This document shows, one piece after another, positions 42,272 to 51,264 of a stretch of 64,000 bases of DNA. The stretch spans positions 682,001-746,000 of the forward strand of contig NZ_JNIF01000003.1 of NCBI RefSeq assembly GCF_000702445.1, given 5' to 3'. Position numbers and translations under genes: made by a program. The number at the start of each line of letters is the position of its first letter. Position 1 is the stretch's first letter. The notes below the pieces were generated by a model. The model saw only the letters and a program-made list of their open reading frames with translations. It had not been told where the DNA came from and searched no databases. Source of the DNA: Bryobacter aggregatus MPL3. GTDB lineage: Bacteria; Acidobacteriota; Terriglobia; Bryobacterales; Bryobacteraceae.

Positions 42272-43384
42272 ATGCCTCACTGGACCCAGAGCTTTCTTCT
42301 CCTCGTTGTCCTCGGCAGTTCCGCCGCGGAAGTACAAGAGTCCTTCGAGGCGATGGTGATCGAGGCTCCAGCCCCCATCACCGTGGCAGGAAGAACCCAA
42401 CTCTACTACGAGTTGCATCTGACAAACTTCAGTTCGAAGCCGCTACAACTCGAGACGGTTCGCGTGCACAATGCGGACAACGGCGCGGTGTTGCAAGAGA
42501 TTGGGGGTGCGGCGCTCGCGGCACGGACCAGCATCCTTGGCGCAGTTGCCGGCCCTGTGGCGCCAGGGCGCAGGGCGATTCTATATCTCGAGTTAGATCT
42601 TGGCACGGCGGCGCCCCGTGCAATTGAGCATGAGATTGCCTATCTGTCCAACGGGGAGCGCAGCAGCTATCGGCTGCGCGGCGGGCGAAGTGAGGTGAGT
42701 TCCCGACAAGCGATCGTTGTCGGGATGCCGGTCAGTGGCGGGCCGTGGGTGGCCGTTCATCATCCAGACTGGGCTCGCGGCCATCGCCGTGTGGTCTATA
42801 CCGTGGAGGGCCGCCCACGCATCCCCGGACGCTTTGCCATTGACTGGGTGAAGGTAGATGCACTTGGCCGGACCATCGCAAAAGATTCCGATCGGGTGGA
42901 CGCTGCCTTTGGCTATGATGCAGCGGCGCTGGCGGTCGCAGATGCAGTGGTGGTGGCCATTCGCAACGACTTTGCAGAGAGCAGTCTCGTGTCGCAGAAT
43001 CCGAAGCACGCACTCGGCGAAGGATCAGGCAACTATGTGGTGCTGCAGTTGACCAAGGATCGATTTGCGATCTATGAGCACTTGCGTCCGGGCAGCGCCA
43101 CAGTGGCGGTAGGAGATCGAGTGCGCCTGGGGCAGAAGATTGGCGCCTTGGGTTTTACGGGAGACTCCACCGGACCGCATCTGCACTTTCATATGGCAGA
43201 CGGCGCGAATGATCTGAATGCCGAAGGAGTGCCTTTCGCGTTTGACCGGTTCACGGTGCTGGGCCATTACAGGGACATCTCGAAGTTGGGATCGGCGCCT
43301 TGGGAGCCAGCGGAGAAAATAGAACGGAAGAAGGAATGGCCGGCCCCGAATGCCGTTCTACAAGTCGAGGCGGCTCATCGTTGA
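42272..43384 (+). CDS. Secreted M23-family (LytM-like) peptidase homologue
   Basis: 370 residues with a signal peptide (LLLVVLGSSAA). Residues about 25-130 are a beta-sandwich domain. The C-terminal LytM domain (about 175-330) has GNYVVLQL, YEHLRPGS, VGDRVRLGQKIGALGFTGDSTGPHLHFHM, with the HxH zinc ligands in place. The first zinc-ligand motif HxGxD is replaced by RFAIDW, so one canonical His is missing; the protein could be a degenerate activator-type LytM or use another His (GHRR). Exported, presumably acting at peptidoglycan. Confidence 0.8.
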   Translation: MPHWTQSFLLLVVLGSSAAEVQESFEAMVIEAPAPITVAGRTQLYYELHLTNFSSKPLQLETVRVHNADNGAVLQEIGGAALAARTSILGAVAGPVAPGRRAILYLELDLGTAAPRAIEHEIAYLSNGERSSYRLRGGRSEVSSRQAIVVGMPVSGGPWVAVHHPDWARGHRRVVYTVEGRPRIPGRFAIDWVKVDALGRTIAKDSDRVDAAFGYDAAALAVADAVVVAIRNDFAESSLVSQNPKHALGEGSGNYVVLQLTKDRFAIYEHLRPGSATVAVGDRVRLGQKIGALGFTGDSTGPHLHFHMADGANDLNAEGVPFAFDRFTVLGHYRDISKLGSAPWEPAEKIERKKEWPAPNAVLQVEAAHR

Positions 43385-43390
43385 AGAAAC

Positions 43391-44212
43391 TGGTTATGGC
43401 AGTTCCCCCGCGAACAGGCTGCCTGCGCGCGCATCCCGGAACAGAACATGCAGGCGCTTGACGCCAGCCCTGGGTGAAACTGGAGCGGAGAGCACGTAGT
43501 AGTCTGCGCATTCGAGCACTTCTAAGACCAGCCACAAGCCCATGCGATCTGTCGGATCGAGCACCGCAAAAAGATGATGAGAGAGGAAGAGTCCAAAGGT
43601 GGCCAGGCGCAACGCAAACACGAGAGCGCATAGCAGCACCGGCAGAACGAAGCATTGGAGGATCGTTACTGCGGCATTGGCGCCGATTGCAGAGATGTTG
43701 CCTGCTGGCCAGGGGCAGAGAGAAGAATACTAAAGCAAGCGCCATTGCCCATAGTCCCTGCGCTTGCGACGGGGCATCAGAAGCGTGGCGGCGAGCGTCA
43801 TCGCAATGGCGGAGAAAACGGCAGTGAGATTTGCTGCCACCGCGAAGCCGAGCGAGGCCGGCTGCAAGTAGCCCTTGAACAAAAAGTACATCGCCCAGAC
43901 CAGGAAGGCGATGCTCATGCCATAGCCGCATGCGGGCGATTGAGAAATCGAGCAGGAACGGGTGCAGCAGAATCACGTCATAAGCCAGCCAGCGGAACAC
44001 AGGCGAGCCGAGTTGCTGCGCCATCCCGAGTTGCCCAGGCCCCAGGCAGACAAGCGGCAAAGCAGGCTGTAGAGGATGTGGTTGCTGGCATCGAAATCGC
44101 AGTAGAGCTGCGAGAAGGGCCCACTGACGGAGTGCAGATCAATGAACGCCTTATCGTGCACCAGCGATTGTGGGACCGCGTGGTCGCCCTTCAGATCCAA
44201 CAGGAGGGAACA
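43391..44212 (-). pseudogene. Decayed polytopic membrane glycosyltransferase (GT-C/ArnT-like)
   Basis: This 0.8 kb stretch has no intact gene, but minus-strand fragments in several frames line up as one membrane protein. In order: LYCDFDASNHILYSLLCRLSAWGLG (about 44110-44040; the D-x-D and NH are typical of GT-C first loops); WLAYDVILLHPFLLDF-SIA in the next frame; then, after a 1 nt shift, ACGYGMSIAFLVWAMYFLFKG and AVAANLTAVFSAIAMTLAATLL to a stop near 43730; then LVFALRLATFGLFLSHHLFAVLD to a stop at 43394. FLLDF-SIA-RGYGM is the pattern of these enzymes. It is much shorter than an intact one (450-600 residues), so segments have also been lost. The 5' end abuts the his leader. Confidence 0.55.
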
Positions 44213-44255
44213 GCACCAAGAAGATTCATTGTAGATCGCAGGCTGGGGGCTGTGA

Positions 44256-44261
44256 TAAACT
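44256..44261 (+). promoter_or_regulatory. -10-like hexamer of the his operon
   Basis: TAAACT, preceded by TGA, ends 8 nt before the leader-peptide ATG (44270). TTGTAG at 44229-44234 is a possible -35, though the spacer (21 nt) is long. No ribosome site precedes the leader ATG, so the leader transcript may begin at its start codon. Confidence 0.35.
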
Positions 44262-44269
44262 TTGGTTTC

Positions 44270-44344
44270 ATGGCTCTTGGGCTCCACCATCGTCGGCACC
44301 ATCATCATCATTTCTCGGTGAACCGGCCGGCTCATATGCTGTGA
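44270..44344 (+). CDS. hisL: His operon leader peptide
   Basis: A 24-codon frame with His codons at positions 6, 7, 10-14 and 22: seven His in nine codons (44285-44311), interrupted only by two Arg. It ends at TGA 44342-44344, 26 nt before a strong terminator hairpin and 80 nt before hisI. Ribosome stalling at the His codons when charged tRNA-His is scarce would leave the downstream CGGCCGGCT free to form the antiterminator. The arrangement is that of the enterobacterial hisL, whose peptide has seven consecutive His, but the sequence is unrelated. Too short for ordinary gene finders. Confidence 0.85.
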   Translation: MALGLHHRRHHHHHFSVNRPAHML

Positions 44345-44379
44345 TCGTTTGCGATCTACTTCTCCTTCATAGCCCGCCG
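44324..44379 (+). promoter_or_regulatory. His antiterminator pairing
   Basis: CGGCCGGCT (44324-44332, at the end of the leader peptide) pairs with AGCCCGCCG (44371-44379) at 8 of 9 positions. The second strand is the 5' arm of the terminator, so the two structures exclude each other. A 5 bp hairpin, GATCG/CGATC (44343-44356), lies in the loop. A ribosome that reaches the leader stop would cover the first strand and allow termination. Confidence 0.75.
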
Positions 44380-44413
44380 CGCTGAGACTCAGCCCGGCGG
44401 GCTTTCTGTTTTT
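44371..44413 (+). terminator. His operon attenuator terminator
   Basis: AGCCCGCCG (44371-44379) pairs with CGGCGGGCT (44395-44403), and inside it GCTGA (44381-44385) pairs with TCAGC (44389-44393). A U-rich run TTTCTGTTTTT (44403-44413) follows. It lies 10 nt before hisI and downstream of the leader peptide, so in the conducting state RNA polymerase must read through it. Confidence 0.92.
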
Positions 44414-44423
44414 AGGATCTCCC

Positions 44424-44810
44424 TTGTCAATACCAAAACTCGATTACTCAAAACTCGACGGCCTCATCACTGCCGTCATCCAGGATTGGAAATCGCAGCG
44501 CGTCCTCATGGTTGGATTCATGAATGAAGACGCCTTTGCGAAGACGCTTGAAAGCGGCAAGTGCTGTTTCTATTCGCGCAGCCGCAACAAGCTTTGGCTG
44601 AAGGGAGAATCCTCAGGTCACTTCCTCAATGTGAAAGAGATCCGTACCGACTGCGACAATGACACCTTGCTCATCTTTGCGGAAGCCGTCGGGCCCGGTG
44701 TCTGCCACGAAGGGTTCGAATCCTGCTTCGCCAAGAAGCTCAACGCAGAGAATGTCTTCGAGTACGTTGACTCCAAAACTTATAACGCCGACGAGGTCTA
44801 CAAACACTAG
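44424..44810 (+). CDS. hisI: Phosphoribosyl-AMP cyclohydrolase
   Basis: Third step of histidine synthesis: opens the adenine ring of PR-AMP. 128 residues, a stand-alone cyclohydrolase without the HisE domain. Metal ligands are visible: TDCDND (Asp76, Cys77, Asp78, Asp80) and the Cys pair [11 protein letters not shown] (Cys94, Cys101). TTG start, supported by AGGA 6 nt upstream and by the family's N-terminus. First structural gene behind the attenuator. No hisE (PR-ATP pyrophosphohydrolase) is in the operon, so it must be elsewhere. Confidence 0.94.
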
Positions 44811-44812
44811 CC

Positions 44813-45682
44813 ATGAAGCTGAAACTTGGTATCCCAAAAGGCTCGCTCGAAAGCGCGACCATCGACATCTTCCGCCGCGCCGGATTCCAGATCACCACCA
44901 GTTCGCGCAGCTACTTTCCTTCGATTGACGACCCCGAGATCGAGTGCATGCTGATCCGCGCCCAAGAGATGGCCCGCTATGTCGAGGACGGGATTCTCGA
45001 TGCCGGCCTGACGGGCCGCGACTGGGTGGAAGAGAACGATTCGCAAGTGGTTGCCGTCGCCGATCTCATCTATAGCCGCGCCAGCTTTACCAAGGTGCGC
45101 TGGGTGCTGGCGGTGCCGGAGAATTCCGACATCCAGTCGGTGAAGGACCTCGAAGGCAAGATCATCGCCACCGAACTGGTGGGGGCCACCAAGCGCTACC
45201 TCGCGCGCAATGGTGTCACCGCAAAGGTGGAGTTCTCCTGGGGCGCAACCGAAGTGAAGCCACCGATCCTGGCCGACGCGATTGTGGAAGTCACCGAGAC
45301 CGGCAATTCTCTGCGCGCCAATAAGCTACGCATTGTCGAAACGATTCTCGAGTCGAACACGCAGCTCATTGCCAACCAGAAGTCGTATGAGGATCCGGAG
45401 AAGCGCCGGAAGCTGGCGGACATCAAGCTGCTGCTCGATGGCGCGATTGCGGCGCTGGGCAAAGTAGGGTTGATCCTCAATGTCGAGAAGGCCAATCTCG
45501 ATCGGGTGCTCGCGGTGCTGCCGGCGTTGAAGATGCCCACCATCTCGCATCTCTCCGATGAAAAATGGGTTGCCGTGCATACGATTCTCGATGAGACCAC
45601 GGTGCGCACGATCATCCCGCGCCTGAAGGAAGCAGGCGGTCAGGGCATTGTCGAATATCCGTTGAACAAAGTCATCCTCTAA
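44813..45682 (+). CDS. hisG: ATP phosphoribosyltransferase, long form
   Basis: First step of histidine synthesis. 289 residues, the HisG long form, with a C-terminal ferredoxin-like regulatory domain (after about residue 215: [43 protein letters not shown]) that binds histidine for feedback inhibition, and therefore no need of HisZ. N-terminal [21 protein letters not shown] and [17 protein letters not shown] are conserved substrate residues. Starts 2 nt after hisI and overlaps hisD by 1 nt. Confidence 0.96.
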
Positions 45683-46929
45683 TGCCACTCCTCCGCATCC
45701 TCCCTCGCACAAAGGCGGCCAGCCTGCTCAAGCGGCGCCAGGTCCAACTGGACGACGCCATTGCGGTGGTTCGTCCGATTTTGGAAGCAGTCCGGAAGAA
45801 CGGCGACAAGGCACTGCTGCAGTATGCGCGCAAGTTTGACAACTTTGATCGCAAGTCGCCACGGGTGACACCGCAGGAATGCGCAGAGGCGGCAAAGTCC
45901 TTGTCGCCCGCCTTTGTCAAAGCAGTGAAAGTGGCGGCGGCAAACATCCGCAACTTTGCGAAGCTGCAGATTCCGAAGCCGGCCAATATCGAGATCGCCC
46001 CGGGTCTGAACGCGGGCTACATTGTCCGTCCGCTCGATACGGTGGCGGCCTACATTCCGTCGGGCCGCTATCCCCTGCCCTCGACGCTGCTGATGACCAC
46101 ACAACCGGCGCAGGTTGCGGGCGTGCCCAATATCTGCGTAACCTCGCCGCGCTTTGTGCCGGAGATCTTTGGCACGGCGCACTTGCTGGGCGTCGAGCAG
46201 ACTTATCTTTTGGGCGGTGCGCACGCGATTGCCGCCTTTGCGTATGGCACCAAAACGGTACCGAAGGCAGACCGCATTGTCGGCCCTGGCAACATCTATG
46301 TCGCGGCCGCAAAGAAACTGCTGGCGGGTGAAGTGGGCATCGACTTTGTCGCTGGGCCCACCGAGATTCTGATCATCGCCGCGACAGGTAACCCGAAGTG
46401 GATTGCCGCCGACATGCTGGCCCAGGCCGAGCATGATACGGATGCGGCAGCAATTCTGCTGACCACTTCGGCGAAGCTCGCCGAGGCCGTCGCAGCAGCG
46501 GTGGAACTGCAACTGAAGACGCTGCCCACGGCCGCAGTCGCTAAGCAAGCCTTGCGCCGCAACTCCGCGATTCTCATGGTAGATTCGCTCGAGGAAGCCT
46601 GTGAGCTGTCGAATCAGTTTGCGCCGGAACACCTTTCGATCCCCAGCGCGAGTCTATTGAAGCACCTGAAGCACGCGGGCGGCATCTTCATTGGCGGCAA
46701 CTCCCCCGAGGCGGCTGGCGACTACGCCTCCGGCCCGAATCATGTGCTGCCCACCAGCGGCGCTGCCCGCCTGCGCGGAGGACTGTCCGCAGCCGACTAT
46801 GTCAAGGTCATCACGACGCAGCAACTGACCCCCGAGGCGCTGGCCAAGCTGGCTCCCACCATCACGACGCTGGCCCGGGCCGAAGGGCTGGAGGCACACG
46901 CGCGTTCTATCGAAGCGAGGCTCGACTAA
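45682..46929 (+). CDS. hisD: Histidinol dehydrogenase
   Basis: Last two oxidations, histidinol to histidine with NAD and zinc. 415 residues, normal. Seen: YIPSGRYPLPSTLLM, GGAHAIAAFAYGTKTVPKAD, KIVGPGN-like DRIVGPGNIYVAAAKKLL, DMLAQAEHD (zinc-ligand His region) and NHVLPTSGAARLRGGLSAADY. ATG shares one base with the hisG stop and its own stop shares one base with hisC. Confidence 0.96.
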   Translation: MPLLRILPRTKAASLLKRRQVQLDDAIAVVRPILEAVRKNGDKALLQYARKFDNFDRKSPRVTPQECAEAAKSLSPAFVKAVKVAAANIRNFAKLQIPKPANIEIAPGLNAGYIVRPLDTVAAYIPSGRYPLPSTLLMTTQPAQVAGVPNICVTSPRFVPEIFGTAHLLGVEQTYLLGGAHAIAAFAYGTKTVPKADRIVGPGNIYVAAAKKLLAGEVGIDFVAGPTEILIIAATGNPKWIAADMLAQAEHDTDAAAILLTTSAKLAEAVAAAVELQLKTLPTAAVAKQALRRNSAILMVDSLEEACELSNQFAPEHLSIPSASLLKHLKHAGGIFIGGNSPEAAGDYASGPNHVLPTSGAARLRGGLSAADYVKVITTQQLTPEALAKLAPTITTLARAEGLEAHARSIEARLD

Positions 46930-48002
46930 TGGACTTTCCTGAACTCAAACCCCGCGCCGCCATCGATCGCATGGCCGCCTATCATCCGCCAAGTGCGGGC
47001 CGCGCCGGCAAGCTGCGGCTGGACTTCAACGAGAATACCCAAGGCGCGAGCCCGAAGGTCCTGGCGAAGATCCAGGAGGTGCTGACCGCCGACGCGCTCA
47101 CGATCTATCCGGAATACACCACCGTGCTGCCCACGCTCGCCAAGTTCTTCGAGGTGGGCGAGGATGAGCTGGTCATGACGAATGGCACCGACGAGGCGAT
47201 CCAGATACTGATCAATGCCTTTGTCGAGGATGACGACGATGTCGTGATCCTCACACCGAGCTATGCGATGTACCGCTTTTATGCTGAGGTGGCGGGCGCG
47301 AAAGTGCGCACGCTGCCCTATCGCAAGGACACGCTCAAGTTTCCTCTCGAGGAGTTACTCGAAACGATCCGGCCAGAGACGAAGGCGATTCTGATCTCGA
47401 ATCCGAATAACCCCACCGGCACGGCAATCAAGCGGGAAGGCATGGAGCGTATTCTCGACGCCGCGCCGCAGGCCGCCGTATTGATCGATGAGGCTTACTA
47501 CGAGTTCTGCGGCATCACGATGCTGCCCTATCTGAACGAGTATCCGAACCTGTTTGTCAGCCGCACCTTCTCGAAGGTTTACGGCATGGCCGCCCTGCGT
47601 GTCGGCTGTCTGTTCTCAAACTCGAAGAACATGGCGGCGATTCACAAATCGCACTCGCCGTATTCCGTCAACTACCTGGCCGCCATCGCGGCCAAGACAG
47701 CCGTCGAGGACACCAGCTTCCTGCGCAACACGGTGACCGAGGTGTTGGCCGCGCGCGAAGTATTGACGGCCGGCCTCGAGAAGATCGGCGTCCCCTATGT
47801 GCCGAGCCAGGCGAATTTCGTGCTGCTGCACATTGGCCCGAAGGCGCAGGAGGTCTGCGACCAGCTCAAGGCCGCAGGCATCCTGGTGCGCAACCGCAGT
47901 TATGAGATTCCAGGCTGCGTGCGTGTCACGGTAGGGTCGCAGGAGCAGACTCGCCGCTTTCTTACAACATTTGAACCGCTTTGGAAGGAGATCCAGAAGT
48001 GA
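46929..48002 (+). CDS. hisC: Histidinol-phosphate aminotransferase
   Basis: PLP-dependent class I/II aminotransferase converting imidazole acetol phosphate to histidinol phosphate. 357 residues. Seen: LDFNENTQGASPKVL, LISNPNNPTGTAIKREG (PLP-contacting Asn), VLIDEAYYEF (Asp and Tyr), and RTFSKVYGMAALRVG with the Schiff-base Lys. The stop (TGA) overlaps the GTG start of the phosphatase gene. Confidence 0.95.
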   Translation: MDFPELKPRAAIDRMAAYHPPSAGRAGKLRLDFNENTQGASPKVLAKIQEVLTADALTIYPEYTTVLPTLAKFFEVGEDELVMTNGTDEAIQILINAFVEDDDDVVILTPSYAMYRFYAEVAGAKVRTLPYRKDTLKFPLEELLETIRPETKAILISNPNNPTGTAIKREGMERILDAAPQAAVLIDEAYYEFCGITMLPYLNEYPNLFVSRTFSKVYGMAALRVGCLFSNSKNMAAIHKSHSPYSVNYLAAIAAKTAVEDTSFLRNTVTEVLAAREVLTAGLEKIGVPYVPSQANFVLLHIGPKAQEVCDQLKAAGILVRNRSYEIPGCVRVTVGSQEQTRRFLTTFEPLWKEIQK

Positions 48003-48643
48003 AGCCGCTTCTTGTATTCGATATGGACGGCGTGCTCGTCGAAGTGAAGGAATCCTACCGGGAGACCATTCGCGTCACCGTGCAGCACTTCACGGAATCC
48101 GCGCCCTCGCATGAGATCATCCAGCACTACAAGAATGAGGGAGGCTGGAACAACGACTGGAAGTTGAGCCATGAGTTGATCCGCGTCGCGGGCAAGGACA
48201 TTCCTTACGAGACCGTCGTGCGCGTGTTCAACCAGTTCTTCTTCGGGCACAACGGCGAGCCGGGCCTGATTCTGCGCGAGCGCTGGATCGACAACAGCCA
48301 GATCCTCAAGCGCTTGTCCGAGAAGTACGATTTCGCGATCTTCACCGGACGTCTGCATGAGGAAGCGCAGATCACCTTGCGCCGCTTTGGCAGCGATTAC
48401 TCGTGGTTCGCGGTGCTGGGGGACGACAACGTTGCGCACTCGAAACCACACCCCGATGGACTGAACCAACTGAAGGCAAAGCGTGAGATCGCCTGGTATC
48501 TCGGCGACACCATCGACGATGCCCGTGCGGCGCGCGACGCTCAGGTGCCCTTTATTGCCATCACCGCGCCCGGCGGCGACTTCCAAGACCTACCAGTGGC
48601 CCTTGCGGTCCACTCCATCAACGAACTGGAGAGCATCCTCTAA
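47999..48643 (+). CDS. HAD-family phosphatase, likely histidinol-phosphatase
   Basis: 214 residues from a GTG that overlaps the hisC stop, with AAGGAG about 10 nt upstream. All four HAD motifs are intact: VFDMDGVL (nucleophile Asp8, Asp10), FAIFTGR, SKPHPDG (Lys) and [13 protein letters not shown]. HisB here is only the dehydratase, so the pathway still needs a histidinol-phosphate phosphatase, and this gene sits exactly between hisC and hisB. I recall a HAD subfamily (TIGR01548) tied to histidine synthesis in cyanobacteria and archaea; this protein resembles it in motif spacing. The function is inferred, strongly from context. Confidence 0.85.
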
Positions 48644-48644
48644 C

Positions 48645-49232
48645 ATGCGCAGTGCAACGATCGAACGCATTACGAAAGAAACGCAGATTCGCGGCAGCCT
48701 CAAAATCGAGGGCAAGGGGAAGTACACCATCTCGACCGGTGTCCGCTTTCTCGATCACATGCTCGAGCTGTTCACCCGCCATGGCGGCTTTGATCTGAAG
48801 CTGGAGGTGACCGGCGATCTCGACGTCGACCAGCACCACAGCGTGGAGGACGCGGGCATTGTGCTCGGGCAGCTCTTCTCACAGGCGCTTGGAGACCGCA
48901 AGGGCATCAACCGCGCCGGCTACTTTGTGCAGACCATGGACGAGACGCTGGCCGTGTGCGCCGTCGACCTTGGCGGCCGTCCGGCGCTGGTCTACAAGGA
49001 TCTGGTGAAGGTGGTGCATGTGGGCGACCTGCAGACCGAGTTGCTGATCGATTTCTTCGATGGCTTTACGCAGCATGCCAAGGCGAACTTCCACGCGAAG
49101 GTGCTCTATGGCCGCTCGAACCATCACAAGATCGAAGCCATCTTCAAGTGCTTTGCCCGCGCGATGAAGTATGCCTGCTCGAAGGATGCGCGGATGAAAG
49201 ATCAGCTTCCGTCTACGAAAGAGCTTTTATGA
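48645..49232 (+). CDS. hisB: Imidazoleglycerol-phosphate dehydratase
   Basis: Dehydrates IGP to imidazole acetol phosphate. 195 residues, monofunctional, without the N-terminal phosphatase domain of E. coli HisB. Seen: [21 protein letters not shown], the metal-binding [10 protein letters not shown], and the second half copy [21 protein letters not shown] at 48645, 2 nt after the previous stop. The ATG of hisH overlaps its stop (ATGA). Confidence 0.95.
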
Positions 49233-49825
49233 TTTCGATCATCGACTACGGGGCGGGCAATCTGCGCTCTGTACAGAACACACTTGCGGAATTGGGTGCC
49301 AGCTACAAGCTGATCGATACGCCAGAGGCCGTGCTGGCCGCCGAGAAGCTGGTGCTGCCGGGCGTGGGCCACTTTGGCCAGTTAATGGTGGCGCTCGATG
49401 TGCTGCGTCTGCGCGAGGCGATTCTCGAGAAGATCCGCGCCGGCAACCCCTTCTTTGGCATCTGCCTGGGCATGCAGGCATTGTTTTCGGGCTCCGGCGA
49501 GGCTCCCGATCAGAAGGGGCTCGCGCTCTATCCCGAACGTATCGAGCGCTTCCCCAACACGGCGCGTGTGCCGCACATGGGATGGAATTCGCTCACACCG
49601 CGCCCCGATAGCAAGCTGCTGCGCGGGCTGCCTGATCCGATCTACGTATACTTTGCCAATAGCTATTACGCGCCGCCTGTTGCCGCGACAGCGGCGACCT
49701 GCGACTACCAGTTCCCCTTCTCCGCTGTGGTGGAAGAAAACAACGTCTATGGCGTGCAGTTTCATCCGGAGAAGTCCGGCGCCACTGGCCTCAAGATCAT
49801 GAGCAATTTTCTGGAGCTGGCCTAA
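49229..49825 (+). CDS. hisH: Imidazole glycerol phosphate synthase, glutaminase subunit
   Basis: Class I glutamine amidotransferase that gives ammonia to HisF. 198 residues. Catalytic Cys79 in FFGICLGMQ, and the His-Glu pair in [22 protein letters not shown] at the N-terminus and LPGVGHFG are family marks. It ends one base before the hisF ATG. Confidence 0.95.
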
Positions 49826-50586
<761 letters not shown>

Positions 50587-50590
<4 letters not shown>

Positions 50591-51264
50591 TCATTCCTTG
50601 TATTGACCTCCAGGACGGCAAAGTCGTTCAGCTTGTCCAGGGCCGCGAAAAGGCTTTGGAGGGAGAAGCTCCGCTGGTGATGCTGGAGCGCTTTGCCGGC
50701 TTCCCGGAGATTCAGGTGATTGACCTGGACGCGGCCATGGGCCGGGGCGCCAACGATGCGATCGTCGAGATGCTGGCGGCGCGCGCGAAATGCCGCGTCG
50801 GCGGCGGCGTGCGCACTCCCGCGCGCGCAGAGGCGCTGGTGCGGCAAGGAGCCCATCAGGTGATTGTCGGCACGGCTGCCTTCACGCCGGCGCTGGCAGA
50901 CATTGCCGCTGCCGTCGGCAAGGAGCGGATTCTGGTCGCGCTCGATTCGAAGTTCGGCAAGATCGTGGTGAAGGGTTGGCAGGAGACAACAGACCTCACC
51001 GCCGTCGATGTCATCCAGCAACTGGAGCCCTATTGCGGCGGCTTTCTCTGCACCTATGTCGACAAGGAAGGGATGCTGCAAGGCACGGACCTCGACTGGT
51101 TTGCGCAACTGCGCGCCGCCACCAGCTTGCCGATTACCGCCGCCGGCGGCATCACCACCATCGACGACATCCGGGCCCTGAGCGCCTTGCAGATCGATTC
51201 GGCGCTCGGCATGGCGATCTACACCGGACGCCTGCAGCTCGACGAATTGCGTCAAATGCTCTAA
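50587..51264 (+). CDS. hisA: ProFAR isomerase
   Basis: Fourth step of histidine synthesis, an Amadori rearrangement of ProFAR. 225 residues, TIM barrel. Begins [19 protein letters not shown] with catalytic Asp7; [41 protein letters not shown] and [14 protein letters not shown] follow the expected order. Somewhat shorter than HisA of E. coli (245). The AICAR by-product returns to purine synthesis. Last canonical his gene of the operon. Confidence 0.93.

Follow-up and report, generated by a model that had tools for sequence, protein, structure and literature searches.

What is a 24-codon reading frame with eight histidine codons doing directly in front of hisI, the first gene of the his operon in the acidobacterium Bryobacter aggregatus MPL3? 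The original prediction, drawn from the 64-kb window (the whole stretch of DNA that was analysed), was that this frame and the RNA behind it control the operon by ribosome-mediated attenuation, a reading supported by the relatives, by conservation of the terminator, by tests of the antiterminator strand and by RNA folds. The locus combines the features of this class, namely a His-rich short frame, an intrinsic terminator and an alternative antiterminator placed for control by a ribosome, and from its sequence and from comparison we put the probability that transcription of the his operon is attenuated here by a translating ribosome at about 0.9. Leader and terminator would very likely let the host sense its own histidine supply, by the principle used in E. 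coli and with unrelated sequence.

The frame, which translates as MALGLHHRRHHHHHFSVNRPAHML, has seven of its eight His codons in codons 6-14, exactly to the base as predicted, and it is the sole place in the six frames of the window with at least seven His in nine codons. When the 350 nt preceding hisI were randomised 2000 times under a first-order Markov model, seven His in nine codons never arose and five were reached four times. The terminator was likewise located where it had been placed, its outer stem and an inner 5-pair stem together amounting to -26.7 kcal/mol ahead of a U-run, and the proposed antiterminator strand (strand 2) indeed pairs with the terminator 5' arm (strand 3) at 8 of 9 positions, a complementarity that taken alone is only moderately unusual (equalled by 54 of 2000 randomisations). 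Folding of 44250-44425, which had been suggested as a check, gave -57.8 kcal/mol versus -47 +/- 3.6 for shuffles (z -3.0), with 2 of 200 shuffles folding as well. The features are collected in Table 1.

Table 1. Features of the predicted his attenuator and the operon behind it, in window coordinates.
Feature	Position	Strand	Basis
Extended -10-like box TGA-TAAACT, 8 nt before leader ATG	44253..44261	+	sequence, relatives
Leader peptide frame (hisL-like), ATG to TGA, 24 codons, 8 His	44270..44344	+	sequence, relatives, chance test
Strand 1 (protector), pairs with 44317-44320 and 44323-44327 when ribosome absent	44292..44300	+	minimum-energy fold of window only
Strand 2 (antiterminator strand) CGGCCGGCT, inside end of leader frame	44324..44332	+	pairing, folds, relatives
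Small hairpin GATCG-TTTG-CGATC at leader stop codon, possible pause hairpin (inferred)	44343..44356	+	folds
Strand 3, terminator 5' arm, AGCCCGCCG	44371..44379	+	fold, relatives
Strand 4, terminator 3' arm, CGGCGGGCT	44395..44403	+	fold, relatives
U-rich tail TTCTGTTTTT	44404..44413	+	sequence
hisI, first structural gene, TTG start, AGGA at 44414-44417	44424..44810	+	NF000768, 141.9 bits, cut-off 126
hisG, hisD, hisC, HAD hydrolase, hisB, hisH, hisF, hisA	44813..51264	+	NCBIfam
HAD hydrolase gene between hisC and hisB	47981-48643		best model TIGR01548, below cut-off

How the locus might respond to histidine is suggested by folds of the window sequence in which a ribosome masks part of the RNA, under the assumption that its footprint extends 11 nt past the A-site codon in the downstream direction; these folds give the three states expected. 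A ribosome placed on codon 6, 7, 10, 11, 12, 13 or 14, before synthesis of strand 4, leaves a minimum-energy fold that includes the helix between strands 2 and 3; with the ribosome at codon 22 or at the stop codon this helix is missing and the terminator forms; and in the absence of a ribosome the terminator forms too, strand 2 being paired with strand 1. All of these folds go to the terminator once strand 4 is included, and the switch must therefore be a matter of timing, as is commonly accepted for known attenuators. We propose that transcription would start at the leader AUG itself or no more than a few bases ahead of it, and that the first ribosome would load on this near-5'-terminal codon. 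Given enough charged His-tRNA, the ribosome would reach the stop codon and cover strand 2, strands 3 and 4 would form the terminator, and RNA polymerase would stop before hisI. Were charged His-tRNA short, the ribosome would stall on codons 6-14 and cover strand 1, and strand 2, left free, would pair with strand 3 before strand 4 is made, so that no terminator would form and hisI to hisA would be transcribed. If no ribosome were present, pairing of strand 1 with strand 2 would make termination the default. The small hairpin at the leader stop codon is a possible pause hairpin.

The proposed start of the leader mRNA rests on the spacing of a promoter-like box. At 52 of 61 loci the motif TAnnnT stands 5-12 nt ahead of the leader start, usually at a distance of 8 or 9 nt, as against 12% in shuffles; the box often reads TGnTATACT, the TG extension is present at 33 loci, and in L069 and L070 the box lies farther from the chosen ATG. 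A strict consensus scan finds no promoter on the + strand at the leader, where a good -35 element is also absent. Shine-Dalgarno-like 4-mers precede the leader AUG at about the chance level (8 of 61 loci, shuffled rate 11%); before a candidate hisI start they occur at 32 of 61 loci, a count raised by trying several candidate starts per locus. Because the -10-like box stands 8-9 nt before the AUG and a Shine-Dalgarno sequence is lacking, the leader mRNA is probably leaderless, with transcription probably starting around 44267-44270, about 7 nt behind the box and 0-3 nt before the AUG. A genome survey describes TANNNT signals about 12 bp before gene starts and leaderless genes in all three Acidobacteria genomes covered, at an average of 13.3% of genes (PMC3160421). 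The -10-like box, the absent Shine-Dalgarno sequence, the strand 1 protector and a similar leader at ilvB had all escaped the original prediction.

The arrangement recurs among relatives. A search of 101 genomes gave 97 hisI matches in 96 of them, and 90 loci were fetched, the seven left out being those of G086, G087, G090, G094, G095 and G097 and one of G076, its second match. Upstream of hisI, 67 of the 90 loci have a short frame with four or more His in 10 residues (1 of 90 when shuffled), and 59 have one with at least five (0 of 90), while the next commonest amino acid in upstream frames, Ala, reaches 33 of 90 versus 15 in shuffles; these controls, and those for the terminator below, were single-base shuffles, one per locus. 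The 23 loci without a His-dense frame at the four-in-10 threshold include all 11 of one genus. Within the window's own genus, five of seven genomes gave a hisI match, and all five loci carry a His-rich frame, ending R-P/S-A-H-M/V-L, with a terminator behind it; the conservation in close relatives on which the original prediction had been made to depend is thus present. Among relatives that carry a name, the nearest are metagenome bins labelled Acidobacteria and Bryobacterales, the order belonging to Terriglobia.

Conservation extends to the terminator. A hairpin of -8 kcal/mol or lower followed by T-rich sequence was found at 68 of the 74 loci with a candidate frame, here one with at least three His in 10, versus 13 of 74 shuffles. 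Such a T-rich tail argues against the reading in which these elements chiefly control translation of hisI, through reinitiation or by occluding a ribosome binding site, and not termination. That reading, which we consider improbable, draws on the hairpin's position close before hisI and on published discussions of leader frames with reinitiation at short distance (PMC4833913) and of translational variants of attenuators (PMC9413887), yet the window's stem leaves out the AGGA before hisI, and the leader stop lies 79 nt before hisI as against the 10-11 bp linked to reinitiation in PMC4833913.

Covariation was assessed in an alignment of 57 sequences, drawn from 61 loci whose frame has four or more His in 10 and whose terminator is at or below -8 kcal/mol, after four loci with irregular terminator calls (L013, L028, L059 and L082) had been removed by hand; all four were later found by the search model described below. 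The terminator is paired in 95.2% of cells and 4 of its 8 pairs vary on both sides; none of 500 shuffles reaches the observed value on any of five measures, and an unconstrained consensus fold yields seven pairs, all within the terminator. We regard as very improbable that the terminator is always active, or serves an upstream gene, and stands beside a chance His-rich frame with no sensing: frame and terminator are conserved jointly, no other amino acid is comparably enriched, and strand 2 tracks the terminator arm, although three loci that keep the box and terminator with a degraded frame indicate that a terminator without sensing can exist. The variant with an upstream gene is rejected on distance and conservation, the nearest clear upstream gene on the + strand (peptidase-like) ending at 43384, 885 nt before the leader. 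Least probable of all is that the leader peptide, or the leader RNA left by termination, works chiefly in trans. The leader RNA and peptide of Sinorhizobium meliloti trpL do act in trans (PMC7298713), but here the peptide varies outside the His run and its C-terminal codons shift reading frame although the RNA is conserved, even if an additional trans role may exist beside attenuation.

Strand 2, on which the attenuator reading further depends, has the consensus GCGRCGGGC and can pair with the 5' arm of the terminator. Pairing of strands 2 and 3 is formed in 74.6% of cells of the 57-sequence alignment versus 32-49% when the strands are slid, a comparison in which the 2:3 structure, taken from one perfectly paired locus (L031), was favoured over its slid versions. 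Antiterminator covariation in this alignment is weak: its score is equalled by 14 of 500 shuffles, its pairs with double change by 62 of 500 and its pair types by 412 of 500. In a swap test over 86 loci, other families and classes included, strand 2 scored 21.4 with its own arm and 19.1 +/- 0.3 with others' arms (0 of 5000), and 80 loci without close kin gave 21.3 versus 19.0 +/- 0.3 (0 of 5000), differences to which shared ancestry and base composition may contribute; the loci included 25 of 30 model hits, L118, L135 and L143 being duplicates, L116 the window itself and L115 being left out. A strict strand 2 core, present in 21 loci, is read in three frames (16, 3 and 2 loci), so that the RNA, not the peptide, is conserved there; together with the swap test this places the RNA under selection. 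Locus by locus, strand 2 is better than 95% of shuffles (p <= 0.05) at only 34 of 68 loci; at these 34 its start falls a median of 8 nt past the cluster's final His codon, and its centre lies 14 nt upstream of where the stop codon ends. The order and spacing of leader frame, strand 2 and terminator, which had been judged to fit attenuation, and their place ahead of hisI are borne out both in the window and in the relatives.

To follow the element further we used a search model built from the 57-sequence alignment, whose E-values are rough and whose filters are strict, leaving weak hits uncertain. Matches at E <= 0.001 occur in 85 of 396 genomes of the phylum and 52 of 211 genera, and 17 genomes from five families outside the window's class match at E < 1e-6. 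At the best 30 model loci, four of which repeat earlier loci (L116, L118, L135 and L143), hisI and hisG follow the match in every case, and most loci outside the training set that were given to the model match it. A genus of another family of the order (g56) stands apart: none of its 11 fetched loci (L025, L045, L055, L056, L061, L062, L064, L067, L073, L076 and L077) matches the model up to E 5, and at most two His in 10 occur upstream of hisI. Judged by these searches, the leader is lost from, or absent in, this clade, and the model search likewise finds no leader in L035 and L048. In L012, L038 and L041, most or all of the His frame is lost and the -10-like box and terminator are kept.

Beyond Acidobacteriota, a His-rich frame and a matching terminator precede hisI in two bins that bear the names Actinobacteria and Acidimicrobium (L095:1660-2010 and L096:1690-2010). 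In the order of L096's genome only that genome matches the model and 58 of 59 do not, which speaks for the specificity of the model, and so the element in these two bins may reflect transfer, a misbinned contig or convergence. A locus from Armatimonadota (L098) reaches only 12.8 bits (E 0.22).

How does the element relate to known systems? No Rfam family has a gathering match in the 64 kb, and so there is no match to a T-box or other known riboswitch; a relaxed scan of 44150-44550 returned a single match, of a CRISPR-repeat model to the terminator stem (E 3.3). Membership of the enterobacterial family His_leader (RF00514) was considered and rejected: the model has no match in the window and exceeds its cut-off in 0 of 119 genomes of the phylum, in a search that detected the controls E. 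coli and Corynebacterium glutamicum and was over cut-off in one of the two. Below threshold it matches one genome of the phylum (G201, locus L114; E 8.2e-4), which our own model does not match. With no genome of the phylum over the cut-off, kinship to the enterobacterial element cannot be detected, and the claim that the sequence is unrelated to the enterobacterial leader stands, neither sequence nor structure matching RF00514. The enterobacterial his leader has seven His codons in a short frame and protector, antiterminator and terminator strands, and the E. coli his operon begins with hisG. The acidobacterial element has the same run of seven His and the same strand order before a his operon, but its operon begins with hisI and its leader mRNA is probably leaderless. 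The original prediction had called the occurrence independent or widely spread; wide spread holds within Acidobacteriota, and from the sequence comparison an origin independent of the enterobacterial his leader is only likely.

Attenuators outside the Rfam model have precedents. His-leader attenuators have been predicted in Firmicutes, where the Rfam His_leader model likewise finds nothing (PMC9413887; see also PMC2965389), and unrelated lineages of the same logic are therefore already known. They share with the present element a His-codon frame, a terminator and an antiterminator, but belong to another phylum and have other target genes, and we liken them by their published description. The S. 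meliloti trpL leader also has its frame at the RNA 5' end and also acts by transcription attenuation, but it concerns Trp in an alphaproteobacterium and its start site was found by experiment (PMC7298713), whereas here leaderlessness is deduced from the -10 box. Leader peptides have further been predicted for trp, ilv, cys and leu genes of Actinobacteria (PMC1262725). Titles and abstract openings, an incomplete coverage that does not imply absence from print, contained no published report of a his attenuator in Acidobacteria. The element is a new lineage of a known mechanism, ribosome-mediated transcription attenuation.

The window's genome offers a candidate second case. Upstream of its ilvB (L145, G000:C4, upstream of 889632) lies an Ile/Val/Leu-rich leader stretch, VPIVITIIGVLIVGVGVV, with TAGACT 7 nt before the ATG and a -32 kcal/mol fold before a T-run, similar to the his leader. 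Four congeners (L146, L148, L151 and L152) have a similar ilvB frame, with a stem recognised by eye and a weaker T-run unflagged by the scan, and a locus from another genus (L150) has an Ile/Leu/Val-rich frame and a flagged hairpin. Among the loci examined in 12 relatives and the window's genome, the regions upstream of leuA and pheA have no comparable leader, and the anthranilate synthase model PF04715 matches in five of these 13 genomes, none of the window's genus.

We tentatively raise the possibility that leaderless leader-peptide attenuation is old and widespread in Acidobacteriota, of an origin independent of the enterobacterial his leader, and serves two pathways or more, his and ilv among them. 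If this were true, a leader AUG at the 5' end would need leaderless initiation, and histidine control would thus be tied to conditions that favour leaderless translation. The leader offers a clear signal, target and mechanism, together with a search model whose best 30 hits all lie at hisI-hisG and clade losses available for comparison, and would provide a compact way to ask whether attenuation can operate when the leader frame is leaderless, and a further case for repeated origin of the same regulatory logic.

Some smaller points concern the operon and its surroundings. No hisE was found among the operon genes scanned, hisA falls below the curated cut-off of its best model (TIGR00007), and the HAD hydrolase gene is, by its position, a candidate histidinol-phosphate phosphatase. 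Upstream of the leader, 43394-44060 contains only overlapping frames on both strands, some of which, on the minus strand, give the impression of a decayed gene.
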